64,000 nt of DNA from Faecalibacterium prausnitzii (lineage in GTDB: Bacteria > Bacillota > Clostridia > Oscillospirales > Ruminococcaceae), in the NCBI RefSeq assembly GCF_003287405.1, contig NZ_PRLD01000001.1, forward strand, positions 1-64,000. Reading direction: 5' to 3'. The first letter of the stretch is position 1; each line of letters starts with the position of its first letter. This document shows positions 14,576 to 32,830 of the stretch, in pieces. A model generated the notes under the pieces. The model was not told where the DNA came from. It saw only the letters and a list, made by a program, of their open reading frames with translations, and did not search any database. The position numbers were made by a program, and so were the translations under genes.

Positions 14576-15377
14576 TCCGGCAGCCGGTGCGGTGCGCGGC
14601 TTTGTGCCCGCCCGCAACGATGAGGAACGCTATCTCATGCGGCATATCGAGGATCTTGCCGATGCGGCTTTTTCCCGCGGCATAGCCCGGTACTCCGCGT
14701 TCCTCAGCGACCGGGAACAGGATCTTGCCCGGGCGGCACTGGGGCGTGCCGGTGTGCGGGACGGCTGGCGTTTTGACGGCGGCTGGCCCGAAGCCGAGCG
14801 CCGGGTGCTTTGTCTGGAGCCGGAGTACAGCTACAGCGAGTGTCCGGTGCGCTGTGTACAGCTGCAGTGCCGGGCGCTGCCCGGTGCGGCGCTTCCGGCG
14901 CACAAGGACTATCTGGGCAGCCTGATGGGGCTTGCCCTCAAGCGCGAAGCACTGGGCGATATCCTGCTGCCCGCCGATGCGCCGGGCACAGCCTATGTGT
15001 TCGCGCTGGAGCCGGCGGCAAAGCTTATCTGCCGGGAGCTGTGCCAGGCGGGGCGCACCGAGGTGTCCACCCGTCTTTTGGAGCCGGAAGAGATCCCGGC
15101 TTTCCCGGCGCCGGAGCGGCAGCTGCTCACTGCCACCGTGTCCTCCCTGCGGCTGGACGCGGTGCTTTCTGCCATGCTGCACGTCAGCCGCGGTACTGCT
15201 GCGGAGCTGATCGAAGCGGGCAGGGTAGAGATCAACCATCTGCCGGTAGAAAAGCCCCATGCCCCCGTATACGAGCAGGATGTGTTCACCGTGCGCGGCA
15301 AGGGCCGCTTCCGGCTGACTGCATTGCCCGGGAAAAGTAAAAAAGATCGTTCGATCATTGAGTTCTTTCAATATTAA
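14559..15377 (+). CDS. ylmH: YlmH family RNA-binding protein (S4 domain)
   Basis: 272 aa from ATG 14559, which overlaps the end of sepF by 17 bases and has GGAG four bases upstream. An N-terminal domain typical of YlmH (DREQ.. and LGALMGLGLKRE-like segment, here LGSLMGLALKREALGDI) is followed by a C-terminal S4 RNA-binding fold at about 195-255 (LRLDAVLSAMLHVSRGTAAELIEAGRV region). YlmH homologues act in ribosome-associated rescue and lie beside sepF and divIVA in many Firmicutes. An upstream in-frame ATG at 14532 would overlap sepF further and lacks a ribosome-binding site. Confidence 0.88.
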   Translation: MAHSIDPAAGAVRGFVPARNDEERYLMRHIEDLADAAFSRGIARYSAFLSDREQDLARAALGRAGVRDGWRFDGGWPEAERRVLCLEPEYSYSECPVRCVQLQCRALPGAALPAHKDYLGSLMGLALKREALGDILLPADAPGTAYVFALEPAAKLICRELCQAGRTEVSTRLLEPEEIPAFPAPERQLLTATVSSLRLDAVLSAMLHVSRGTAAELIEAGRVEINHLPVEKPHAPVYEQDVFTVRGKGRFRLTALPGKSKKDRSIIEFFQY

Positions 15378-27336: not shown

Positions 27337-27955
27337 AAAGAAAAATGAAGCCTCCTATATCTCCCTGCTGGACTTGCAGCGGGTGATGCAGCGGGTGCTC
27401 AAGCGCAGCGGTCTGCCGGTGTGGCATACGCTGGGTTTCAACCCCCATATCTACATGACCTTTGCCTGCCCGCTCTCTCTGGGACAGGAGAGCGAGTGCG
27501 AGTGCGTGGACGTTAAGACCGAGGCGGAAGCCCCGGATTTTGCCCAGTGGCAGACTGCGCTCAACGCCATTATGCCCGCCGGTATCCACGTTACCCGGGT
27601 GGCTCCGGTGGAGATGAAAGCGGACAGCATCGCCTTTGCCTGTTACCGCATCAGCTACCCGGCGGCTGCCGTTGCGGTGCTGGAGCAGTATAACGCGCTG
27701 GAGACAGCCCCCGTGGAAAAGCACAGCAAGCGCGGCAAAAAGATCATAGACCTTAAAGAGCATATCCCGCAGCTGCGCTATACCGCACTGGGGGACACTG
27801 TGCAGCTGGAACTTTGCCTGCCTGCCGCGCAGGAGCTGAACCTGAACCCCTCGCTGCTCACCGGTTTTCTGGAAGAAAAGTTCGGCCTGCCAGCCGCAAG
27901 CGCCAATATCCTGCGCACCAAATTTTTGACGGCAGACCAGCAGCTGTTTGCCTGA
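27311..27955 (+). CDS. TIGR03936 family protein (DUF2344)
   Basis: 214 aa. Starts at TTG 27311, with AGGAGG eight bases upstream, and so overlaps the radical-SAM gene by 26 bases. The chain begins ITVRISFEKKNEASYISLLDL and has the family segment GFNPHIYMTFACPLSLGQES. DUF2344 proteins are fused to the C-terminus of the TIGR03960 enzyme in some species, so the two probably act together. No catalytic motif is known. Confidence 0.88.
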   Translation: MITVRISFEKKNEASYISLLDLQRVMQRVLKRSGLPVWHTLGFNPHIYMTFACPLSLGQESECECVDVKTEAEAPDFAQWQTALNAIMPAGIHVTRVAPVEMKADSIAFACYRISYPAAAVAVLEQYNALETAPVEKHSKRGKKIIDLKEHIPQLRYTALGDTVQLELCLPAAQELNLNPSLLTGFLEEKFGLPAASANILRTKFLTADQQLFA

Positions 27956-28020
27956 AGCGGCGCAAAAGTCCGTCTATCATGCAAAACAGAAAATTTTTGC
28001 AAGATTTTTCGCCAAATTGC

Positions 28021-30092: not shown

Positions 30093-30736
30093 AGCGCCGC
30101 TCGGATGAGGAGATCTCGGCGCCGCTGTACGCCTTTGACGCTGAGGTGCGCAGCCAGTACGGCTGCTTTGCCGGTGTGGACGAGGCTGGGCGCGGCCCGC
30201 TTTGCGGCCCTGTTTGCGTAGCGGCCTGTATTCTGGACCCGGAAAACCCGGTGTACGGCATCAATGATTCCAAAAAGCTGACCGAGAAAAAGCGCGAAGC
30301 ACTGTTTGATGAGATCTGCGAAAAAGCGCTGGCCTACCGCATCGTTTTTGTGGGGCCGGAGGTCATCGACCGGGAAAACATCCTGAACGCCACCATGGGC
30401 GGGATGCAGCAGGCGGTGGAAGAACTGGACATCGTGCCTAATCTGGTGCTGGTTGACGGCAACCGCACCCCCGCAGGCTTGCAGATCCCGGCACAGCCGG
30501 TGGTCAAAGGCGATGCCACCAGCGCCAGCATCGGCGCAGCCTCGGTGCTGGCCAAGGTCAGCCGTGACCGCTATATGCTGGAACTGGACAAGCAGTACCC
30601 GCAGTATCAGCTGGCAAAGCACAAGGGCTACCCCACAAAGCTGCACTATGAGCTGATCGCGCAGTACGGCATCCAGCCGTTCTACCGCCGCAGCTTCCTT
30701 AAAAAGCAGGGCTACTGGCCGGAGAGCGGCAAATGA
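30089..30736 (+). CDS. rnhB: Ribonuclease HII
   Basis: Removes ribonucleotides from DNA duplexes. 215 aa. The catalytic carboxylates are in [10 protein letters not shown] (Asp and Glu), VDGNR (Asp) and [13 protein letters not shown] (Asp). The region [10 protein letters not shown] is typical of RNase HII. It is coupled to ylqF and yraN through ATGA overlaps on both sides. Confidence 0.96.
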
Positions 30737-31101
30737 ACCGCGCCGAGACCGGCCGCAGTGGAGAAGCTGCCGCTGCCCGCTGGTATCAGAAGCAGGGCGC
30801 GCAGCTGCTGGCGCATAATTATCATACCCGCATGGGAGAGCTGGATCTTGTGCTGCGGGAGCCGGACGGCACCATCGTCATCTGCGAGGTAAAGACCCGC
30901 AGCCAAGGGATGCTGCAGCGCCCCGCTGCTGCCGTAGACCCGGCCAAGCAACGCCGGCTGATCTGCGCTGCACAAGGGTATTTGCAGCAGACCGGCCAAA
31001 GCGAAGAACCGGTGCGTTTTGACGTTGCAGAGGTAGTTCCTCTTGACAGCGGGCGCTGGATGGTACATATTATAAAGGGTGCCTTTCTCTGCGAACCCTA
31101 A
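30733..31101 (+). CDS. YraN family (UPF0102) endonuclease-like protein
   Basis: 122 aa. PD-(D/E)XK fold: the core reads [25 protein letters not shown], with the acidic and lysine residues of the nuclease motif in place (segments GELD and EVK). Function is not established; it follows rnhB in many genomes. Its TAA stop (31099-31101) lies exactly at the left end of the MITE: the TA is the target-site copy and the A is the first base of the element. Removing the element would leave TAG, so the protein is unchanged by the insertion. Confidence 0.85.
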
Positions 31102-31263
31102 GGGTGTATCTGAAAAGTCGAAAATTTAGTCTATTTCTACAAGCACAGTTGGATTTTGCGTTAAACAGCCTTGAAATCCACAAAGGATTCCTGCGGCTAT
31201 TTGCCTTAAATCCCGCTTGTGCTTGCGAAATATCCGTCATTTTCTTTGTTTTCAGATACACCT
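31101..31263. mobile_element. Foldback MITE (163 bp) with TA target duplication
   Basis: Terminal inverted repeats: left AGGGTGTATCTGAAAA (31101-31116) and right TTTTCAGATACACCT (31249-31263), 15 bp apart from one extra G on the left. TA flanks both ends (31099-31100 and 31264-31265), as produced by Tc1/mariner/IS630-type transposases. The whole element is an imperfect palindrome about its midpoint near 31182; internal matching blocks include TATTTC, CAAGCACA/TGTGCTTG, GGATTT/AAATCC and CAGCC/GGCTATTT. It contains no gene and is AT-richer than its surroundings. It lies between yraN and thrC. No second copy or transposase is in the window. Confidence 0.75.
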
Positions 31264-31369
31264 TAGGCAGAAACCGTGGCACCGGTGGGAAGTATGCGGC
31301 AGAACGAGGATTTTGCCGTGCAACCGGGAACGTGCCCGGCACGTTCCATGGCGAAAAGGAGCGATGACC

Positions 31370-32830
31370 ATGCAGTTTTTCAGTACCAGAGATCAGAACC
31401 GCAAAGTAACCTCTTCTCAGGCAATCGCACAGGGTCTGTCCGATGAAGGCGGCCTGTTTGTGCCGGAAAGTTTTCCGCAGGTGGATGTAAAAGCCCTGTG
31501 TGGGCTGGACTATCCTGCGCTGGCAGCAGCTGTTGTGCGGGAGTACCTGACCGATTATGACCCCGCTTTCCTGACCGACGCCACCCGCAGCACCTACGGC
31601 GCTGCTTTCGGCGGCAAGGCAGGCTATCTTGCCCCGGTGGAAGGGGACACCTATGCCCTGGAGCTGTGGCACGGCCCGACCTGCGCCTTTAAAGATTACG
31701 CCCTGCAGCTGATGCCCAAGCTGCTGGTGGAAGCAAAAAAGAATCTGGGACGCACCGAAAAGACCCTGATCCTTGTGGCCACCAGCGGTGATACCGGCAA
31801 GGCAGCACTGGACGGCTACCATGATATCCCCGGTGTGGAGATCGCCGTGTTCTACCCCACCGGCGGCACCAGCGAGATCCAGCGTTTGCAGATGGCAACG
31901 CAGGAGGGCGCTAATGTTGCTGTGTACGCCGTACGCGGCAACTTCGACGATGCCCAGACCGGCGTGAAGAAGGTGTTCGGCGATAAGGCCATCGCTGCCG
32001 AGCTGGAAAAGCGCAATATCCGTCTTTCCAGCGCCAACTCCATCAACTGGGGCCGCCTTGTGCCGCAGATCGTCTACTATTTTGCCGCCTACGCCCAGCT
32101 GCTCAAGGCCGGTAAGATCACCTTCGGCGACGAGGTGGACTTCTGCGTACCCACCGGCAACTTCGGCGATATCCTTGCCGGTTATTACGCAAAGCAGATG
32201 GGTCTGCCTGTGGGCAAGCTGGTCTGCGCCTCCAACGAGAACAACGTGCTGACCGATTTCCTCACCACCGGTACTTATACCGCAAAGCGGGAGTTCTTCA
32301 AGACCACCTCGCCCAGCATGGACATTCTGGTGTCCTCCAATCTGGAGCGCCTGCTGTACCATGTGACCGGCAGCGATGCCGAGGTAGCAGGCTTTATGCA
32401 GCAGCTGGCTGCCACCGGCAGCTACACCGTCCGTCCCGAGACGCTGGCCGCCATTCAGCAGACCTTCTCCTGCGGCTGGAGCAGCGAGGACGAGGTGGCA
32501 GGGGAGATCCGTGCCCGCTACGAAAAGGATGGCTACCTGTGCGATACCCACACCGCTGTGGCTTTCCATGTGGCTGCACAGAAAAAGCGGCAGGGCGTGC
32601 CCATGGTGGTGCTTTCCACCGCATCGCCCTTCAAGTTCCCCCGCAGTGTGCTGAGCGCACTGGGCAAAGCTGCTCCGGAAAACGATTTTGAAGCCATGCA
32701 GCAGCTGGAGGCTGCCACCGGTCATGCCGCACCGGCAAGCCTTGCCGCTCTGCGCAGCAAGCCGGAGCGCTTTGATACGGTCATTGCCCCGGAACAGATC
32801 GCCGAGGTGGCGCTGGGCTATCAGGCATAA
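31370..32830 (+). CDS. thrC: Threonine synthase
   Basis: PLP enzyme that converts O-phosphohomoserine to threonine. 486 aa from ATG 31370, which has AAAAGGAG eight bases upstream; ATG 31364 is too close to it. Family type is the longer bacterial/fungal form: N-terminal FSTRDQNRKVTSSQAIAQGL, PLP lysine Lys108 in GPTCAFKDYALQLMP, phosphate-binding ATSGDTGKAAL. The upstream 268-base gap is mostly the MITE, so any native thrC promoter is either beyond it or inside it. Confidence 0.96.
   Translation: MQFFSTRDQNRKVTSSQAIAQGLSDEGGLFVPESFPQVDVKALCGLDYPALAAAVVREYLTDYDPAFLTDATRSTYGAAFGGKAGYLAPVEGDTYALELWHGPTCAFKDYALQLMPKLLVEAKKNLGRTEKTLILVATSGDTGKAALDGYHDIPGVEIAVFYPTGGTSEIQRLQMATQEGANVAVYAVRGNFDDAQTGVKKVFGDKAIAAELEKRNIRLSSANSINWGRLVPQIVYYFAAYAQLLKAGKITFGDEVDFCVPTGNFGDILAGYYAKQMGLPVGKLVCASNENNVLTDFLTTGTYTAKREFFKTTSPSMDILVSSNLERLLYHVTGSDAEVAGFMQQLAATGSYTVRPETLAAIQQTFSCGWSSEDEVAGEIRARYEKDGYLCDTHTAVAFHVAAQKKRQGVPMVVLSTASPFKFPRSVLSALGKAAPENDFEAMQQLEAATGHAAPASLAALRSKPERFDTVIAPEQIAEVALGYQA

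Follow-up and report, generated by a model that had tools for sequence, protein, structure and literature searches.

Between yraN and thrC of Faecalibacterium prausnitzii lies a short near-palindrome whose first base doubles as the last base of a stop codon. This locus raises the question of how such a sequence came to interrupt the junction of two genes, what moves it, and whether the body between its ends is more than filler. Here we address these points starting from the window, i.e. the entire 64,000-nucleotide stretch of contig NZ_PRLD01000001.1 that was analysed, and extending the comparison to genomes of the genus, the order and the phylum.

A mobile element at the end of yraN

The gene yraN (30733–31101, forward strand) encodes a protein of 122 aa with matches to the profiles NF009154 and TIGR00252, and the downstream gene thrC (31364–32830, forward strand; start codon of our choosing) encodes a threonine synthase recognized by TIGR00260. 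The element occupies positions 31101–31263 (forward strand, 163 bp), and its first base is the last base of the yraN stop codon. The left copy of a TA target duplication (31099–31100) provides bases 1 and 2 of this TAA codon, and the right copy (31264–31265) is recognizable both from the sequence and from empty sites. The first-pass annotation had proposed that the TAA stop is made up of the left TA and the first base of the element, that without the element the codon would read TAG, and that the insertion separates yraN from thrC. All three proposals are borne out: the sequence bears out the first, the sequence and the profile matches place the 163 bp between the two genes, and the related genome G029 carries an empty allele, GAACCT-TAG-GCAG, with one TA and a TAG stop. 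The base preceding the TA is C in the window genome and T in G029, and the left end in the window reads TA|AGGGTG, with one extra A relative to most copies (TA|GGGTG). The site is also empty in the relatives G013 and G017, where the sequence is slightly unlike that of G029. The yraN gene is present in 30 of the 31 genomes of the genus, and the site is occupied in one of these 30, the window's own, counting as occupied any site with tips at most 600 bp downstream. The yraN copy is therefore an insertion confined to one species, which converts TAG to TAA and adds about 165 bp to the yraN-thrC spacer.

The element is bounded by identical 14-bp terminal inverted repeats, GGTGTATCTGAAAA at 31103–31116 on the forward strand and, in exact agreement, GGTGTATCTGAAAA at 31249–31262 on the reverse strand, and it is nearly palindromic overall. 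The left repeat is directly followed by GTCG, as are the tips at the right ends of insertion sequences in strain An122. Further inward, the fold and the alignment both identify TTTCTACAAG (31134–31143, forward strand) as the left arm of a helix that contains an internal loop, facing CTTGCGAAA (31222–31230, forward strand) as its right arm. The predicted RNA fold of 31090–31275 is an end-to-end hairpin of -64.6 kcal/mol, against a mean of -36.5 for 200 dinucleotide shuffles (z = -7.6), none of which reached as low a value. The earlier description of a palindromic element of about 163 bp with terminal inverted repeats and a flanking TA duplication, whose RNA would form a long hairpin, thus agrees with the sequence, with the single TA of the empty sites and with this prediction.

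The first-pass annotation had also suggested looking for further copies, for empty sites and for a transposase with the same ends, and the first two are readily found. The window's own genome (3.03 Mb in 70 contigs, 99.6% complete) holds nine matches, comprising eight full-length copies (97–100% identity) dispersed at different places and a 56-bp deletion form; the element is hence not a chance palindrome. It contains no transposase gene in its 163 bp. BLAST matches are found in 8 of the 31 genus genomes, its own included. The 14-bp tip, with at most one mismatch, has at least one match in 29 of the 31, with many counts near those of a reversed-pattern control; the counts lie far above this control in the window genome G000 (25 vs 0), G001 (29 vs 2), G007 (66 vs 1) and G016 (37 vs 2). 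Ten filled copies were compared with the joined flanks in relatives. Clear TA-compatible empty alleles with a single TA were recovered for five of them (L001, L004, L007, L008 and L025), in three of which one TA is mutated in the filled allele. For the other five, the comparison is compatible with an empty allele at lower identity in L014, ambiguous in L011, L021 and L033, and without a spanning match in L002. These observations, with the yraN site empty in relatives and a single TA in G029, confirm that 31101–31263 is a mobile miniature inverted-repeat element (MITE) inserted at a TA that it duplicated. An RNA gene conserved at one fixed position would account for the conserved structure described below, but the variable location, the TA duplication and the occupation of the yraN site in one of 30 genomes speak against it, and the empty sites lead us to reject it; we give this reading practically no chance of being correct.

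Several further observations bear on the history of individual copies. One insertion site is common to six species and carries forms of 163 bp, 128 bp and 56 bp (L009 1501–1556, which is in G000:C13, as well as L034, L037 and L015–L017); it represents an old insertion decaying through internal deletion. At the site of a full copy in G017 (L021), the window genome keeps a single tip (L206 about 1698–1713; G000:C18 about 310570), which is a footprint or a deletion remnant. Two 273-bp elements from two species share the tips and bear an extra internal insert (L125 1175–1448 in G004 and L158 278–551 in G001). The 72,556 plasmid records searched contain no match to the element. Matches occur in three of 50,697 phage records, all unannotated fecal contigs, and the tip pattern in three stretches of viral contigs; these contigs with tip patterns or near-copies (L309–L311, MT836996.1, MT836644.1 and MT839582.1) may stem from prophages or from contaminating host DNA. 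Gene context derived from open reading frame calls was discarded, as long spurious frames placed even the yraN copy inside an apparent gene.

Transposases associated with the terminal repeats

The first-pass annotation had assigned the element to the Tc1/mariner/IS630 type. The TA duplication and the short inverted repeats are compatible with that assignment, but elements with the same ends encode a transposase that the profiles place in the IS5 family. In G010 (Candidatus Faecalibacterium intestinigallinarum) the same ends lie 884 bp apart, with TA on both sides, and enclose a transposase in two frames. Its first part matches PF13340 and falls just below the cut-off of the IS5-family profile NF033580 (108.9 vs 110 bits), and its second part matches PF01609 and exceeds that cut-off (142.6 bits). 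The first part was found in 3 of the 31 genus genomes (E <= 1e-10) and adjoins matching tips in G010 and in G007 (Candidatus Faecalibacterium gallistercoris), where the left end next to the transposase matches. Weaker transposase matches (38% identity) in G010 and G004 are without such tips, in stretches that end at contig ends. A scan of the collection with the second part gave 95 loci, of which 80 were kept. Of these, 67, at 34–50% identity, come mostly from relatives of Bradyrhizobium, and the remaining 13 from Faecalibacterium or Gemmiger, seven of them from An122 and one being the G010 element again. At all 13 the right end is ACTTYTCRGATRCAYC with CTA directly after it; for An122 this end is GCCGACTTCTCAGATACACC|CTA, compared with TTTTCGACTTTTCAGATACACC|CTTA for the window element turned round. 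The transposase occurs beside MITEs in G010, G007 and G016, and G016 has an insertion-sequence end bearing the Faecalibacterium tip.

Window-type elements end in GGTGTATCTGA, and the partners found with the same ends, in searches that covered IS5-type transposases, are all IS5-type. From their profile matches, the transposases of elements with window-type ends in F. intestinigallinarum, F. gallistercoris and strain An122 are assigned to the IS5 family. The TA duplication is accordingly no distinguishing mark of IS630 in this case; TA also flanks both ends of five among nine IS5-type elements studied in other genomes. Hence we regard an IS630-type origin as highly improbable and conclude, with considerable confidence, that the element is a non-autonomous IS5-family MITE. 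Of the transposase with the same ends that had been sought, the 884-bp G010 element with its two frames and others in Faecalibacterium and Gemmiger were recovered, but none in the window's own genome. A search with the first part (E <= 1e-10) found no such transposase in G000 or in its closest relatives G013, G017 and G029, and the source of the window-genome copies is therefore lost, located elsewhere or unrecognized. Mobilization in trans by IS5-family transposases is most likely, judging from the shared ends: such an enzyme would cut at the tips and paste the element into a TA, as the shared tips and the duplications suggest.

A hairpin core shared across the order

When 56 elements about 160 bp long, belonging to three subfamilies, were aligned, several internal blocks as well as the ends were seen to be shared. 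Family-level matches occur in 16 of 297 genomes, several of them over the centre only, and most of those inspected are similarly sized elements that share the centre but carry other tips. With 36 elements aligned, changes on both sides are seen at 28 of the 31 predicted pairs, and 90.2% of cells are paired (66.3% when shuffled) with a covariation score of 0.595 (0.178 when shuffled); slid controls reach at most 51.7% paired and a score of 0.168. A covariance model of the core, R1, built from 31 sequences, has matches in 88 of 395 genomes sampled from the order, which we take to be Oscillospirales, representing 43 of 172 genera; the elements concerned are about 160 bp long. In a sample of 398 genomes from the phylum, 4 have matches, three inside the order and one outside.

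The window holds one R1 match, the element itself, with the core region at 31145–31223 (forward strand, 74.2 bits). A second stretch at 27900–27969 gives a very weak score (16.3 bits, E 0.13) and probably matches by chance. Within the core, the apical hairpin CTTGAAATCC-ACAAA-GGATTCCTGCG (31170–31195, forward strand) contains strongly conserved unpaired TT and TGC. It is preceded by a near-invariant CGT block (31159–31161, forward strand; 94–100% at each base over 95 distinct matches to the model), which faces the block GCCTT (31203–31207, forward strand; 81–98% per base in the same 95). Over 100 matches (95 distinct, several per genome, found by R1 itself), the unpaired C-G-T before the inner stem, the T at the first internal loop, the opposite G-C and the post-stem C-C-T-T are conserved at 87–100%. 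When the core is counted alone, in an alignment of the 95 distinct matches that was itself fitted to R1, 97.4% of cells are paired against 79.7% in shuffles, and four of five measures beat nearly all shuffles; the number of pair types is not above them, 399 of 500 shuffles reaching the observed value. The body of the element thus holds a hairpin core common to many genera of the order, and is not filler.

The possibility that the core is part of an insertion sequence was rejected, as R1 did not find it in the insertion sequences tested, namely L124, L165 (truncated by a contig end), L229, L370, L372, L379 and L384. In L373 an R1 match falls outside the insertion sequence. In G479, a pair of GGCCTTGTTTGAAAA tips spanning 125 bp (L391) has no R1 core match.

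Outside the two Faecalibacterium subfamilies there are 61 core matches; inverted repeats next to TA were surveyed at 59 of them, two without flank being dropped. A tip score of at least 15 was obtained for 30 of the 59, with 29 below it, as against 3 of 229 control positions 450–700 bp away, and 24 of the 30 tip-defined elements are 160–169 bp long. Their tips include GGGGCTNTCTGAAAA, GGCCTTGTTTGAAAA, GAACCTGTATTCACA, GAGCGTGTTCACAT and GACCTGTTCGGAAA. A single genome, G333, has two clearly different tips scoring at least 15 (L354 and L360) and two more below that score (L356 and L361). NF033580 matches are present in 4 of 12 core-bearing genomes searched; nine such elements were examined, and in six of them the terminal repeats agree at 12–14 of 14 positions and lie 789–869 bp apart, five of these six having TA on both sides. 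One of them is an 847-bp IS5-type element in G648, with TA on both sides and the tip GGCCTTGTTTGAAAAA, which it has in common with three core elements of G479 and G322; these three, two in G479 and one in G322, carry GGCCTTGTTTGAAAA exactly or with one mismatch. In G001 and G322 the IS5-type element with defined ends does not share its tips with the core elements checked in those genomes. Thus, a tip match to an IS5-type element is established for two tip types and not generally. In G648 a core element with the tip GAGCCTATCCCATAATGA (L390; G648:C301 about 14630–14795) is flanked on both sides by fragments of an IS5-type transposase gene.

A possible reading, to which we give somewhat less than even odds, is a modular element, in which one order-wide core would wear different terminal repeats and would thereby be carried by different IS5-family transposases. 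Its hairpin, with the near-invariant loops, would be a functional part that a factor of the host or the element recognizes in single-stranded DNA or in RNA form, and not an insertion-sequence remnant. Lineages with the same core probably differ in their tips because each would follow the insertion sequence that mobilizes it. The least certain step is that the core hairpin, as single-stranded DNA or RNA, may assist movement of the element or tolerance of it; a structural role in the element's own mobility is our first guess, with an RNA role close behind. In the more specific form of this RNA role, the core would be transcribed with the host gene and bound or cut, for instance by RNase III, setting mRNA ends and making insertions at gene ends tolerable or useful. 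The stable predicted fold (z -7.6), near-invariant unpaired blocks that are unlike on the two sides, and the position of the window copy at a gene end are in line with such a device, and the enterobacterial ERIC and neisserial Correia elements are reported to act via transcripts in the accounts consulted (PMC10969869; PMC2229807). Nevertheless, none of 13 distinct loci has an above-threshold Rfam match on the element, and a simple scan finds no intrinsic terminator inside it. Over the whole element, mismatches comprise 40 G-T and 49 A-C (14 of the 49 from one hand-added column pair); as the two are about equal, there is no clear strand bias. The core alone has 21 G-T against 7 A-C, 20 of the 21 coming from one pair, and mismatches counted on folded consensus structures, which admit G-T by construction, number 26 against 11 and 79 against 28. 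On this evidence the RNA device is possible but somewhat doubtful. Membership in a known Rfam family was rejected for the 13 loci, the sole above-threshold match in these loci, an SpF59 sRNA in G171 (L101 1119–1180; RF02440, 59.4 bits), being outside the element and about 300 bp from the core element there. Three weak matches below their family cut-offs also lie outside elements (L001 1782–1801, L330 2442–2521 and L332 1682–1793).

The compensatory changes fit selection for the hairpin, and they would also fit correction from arm to arm, in which template switching repeatedly repairs a near-palindrome and pairing is kept by mutation. Double changes are indeed seen among copies that are at least 93% alike, with 69 double and 352 single at paired positions in subfamily B (0–14 double in slid controls), and 17 double and 344 single in subfamily A (0–2 double in slid controls). 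However, the blocks of the internal loops stay mismatched and near-invariant across genera, so that arm-to-arm correction alone would not preserve them but rather erase them, and the common core sequence itself would need a separate cause. We accordingly consider this explanation rather unlikely.

Relation to known elements and significance

By the available accounts, several bacterial repeats resemble the element in part. ERIC/IRU of enterobacteria (127 bp) is likewise a short TA-ended MITE spread across whole bacterial families (PMC2229807; PMC10969869); set apart by description, it has a 7-bp terminal repeat and occurs in other bacteria, whereas here the tips vary and two types match IS5-type elements. 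RUP of pneumococcus (107 bp) is described as similarly sharing tips with an autonomous element and inserting at TA, but its partner is IS630-type (IS630-Spn1), unlike the IS5-type partner of the window element (PMC2229807). Correia/NEMIS is also a TA-ended hairpin MITE, whose transcripts are reportedly cut by RNase III; it is recorded in these sources for Neisseria only, and the comparison with the window element is by description alone (PMC2229807; PMC10969869). YPAL/RU-2 of Yersinia (about 168 bp) is described as similar in size and palindromic character, but its termini are given as lacking TA, in contrast to those of the window element (PMC2229807). The IS5-family insertion sequences (NCBIfam NF033580) share tips and TA flanks with the MITE, but are 789–884 bp long with a transposase and, in those tested, have no core. 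Among the matches listed for the open PubMed Central literature, with subscription papers and ISfinder outside this scope, none describes the element. Hairpin elements of about 160 bp with a common core and varying ends apparently form a large undescribed group.

The element accounts for repeats in Faecalibacterium, e.g. the majority of the 66 matches to the tip in G007, and across the order it offers a set of natural insertions, some beside housekeeping genes as at yraN-thrC. Insertion sequences are regarded as the main source of bacterial MITEs in the review consulted (PMC10969869), and conserved ends with a variable middle would therefore be expected. Here the opposite is seen: it is the middle that is retained and the ends that vary, across 43 of the 172 genera sampled from one order. 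The main interest thus lies in a conserved core with changing ends, the ends being what the mobilizing enzyme should recognize, and this raises the testable question of the function of the hairpin body of a bacterial MITE.
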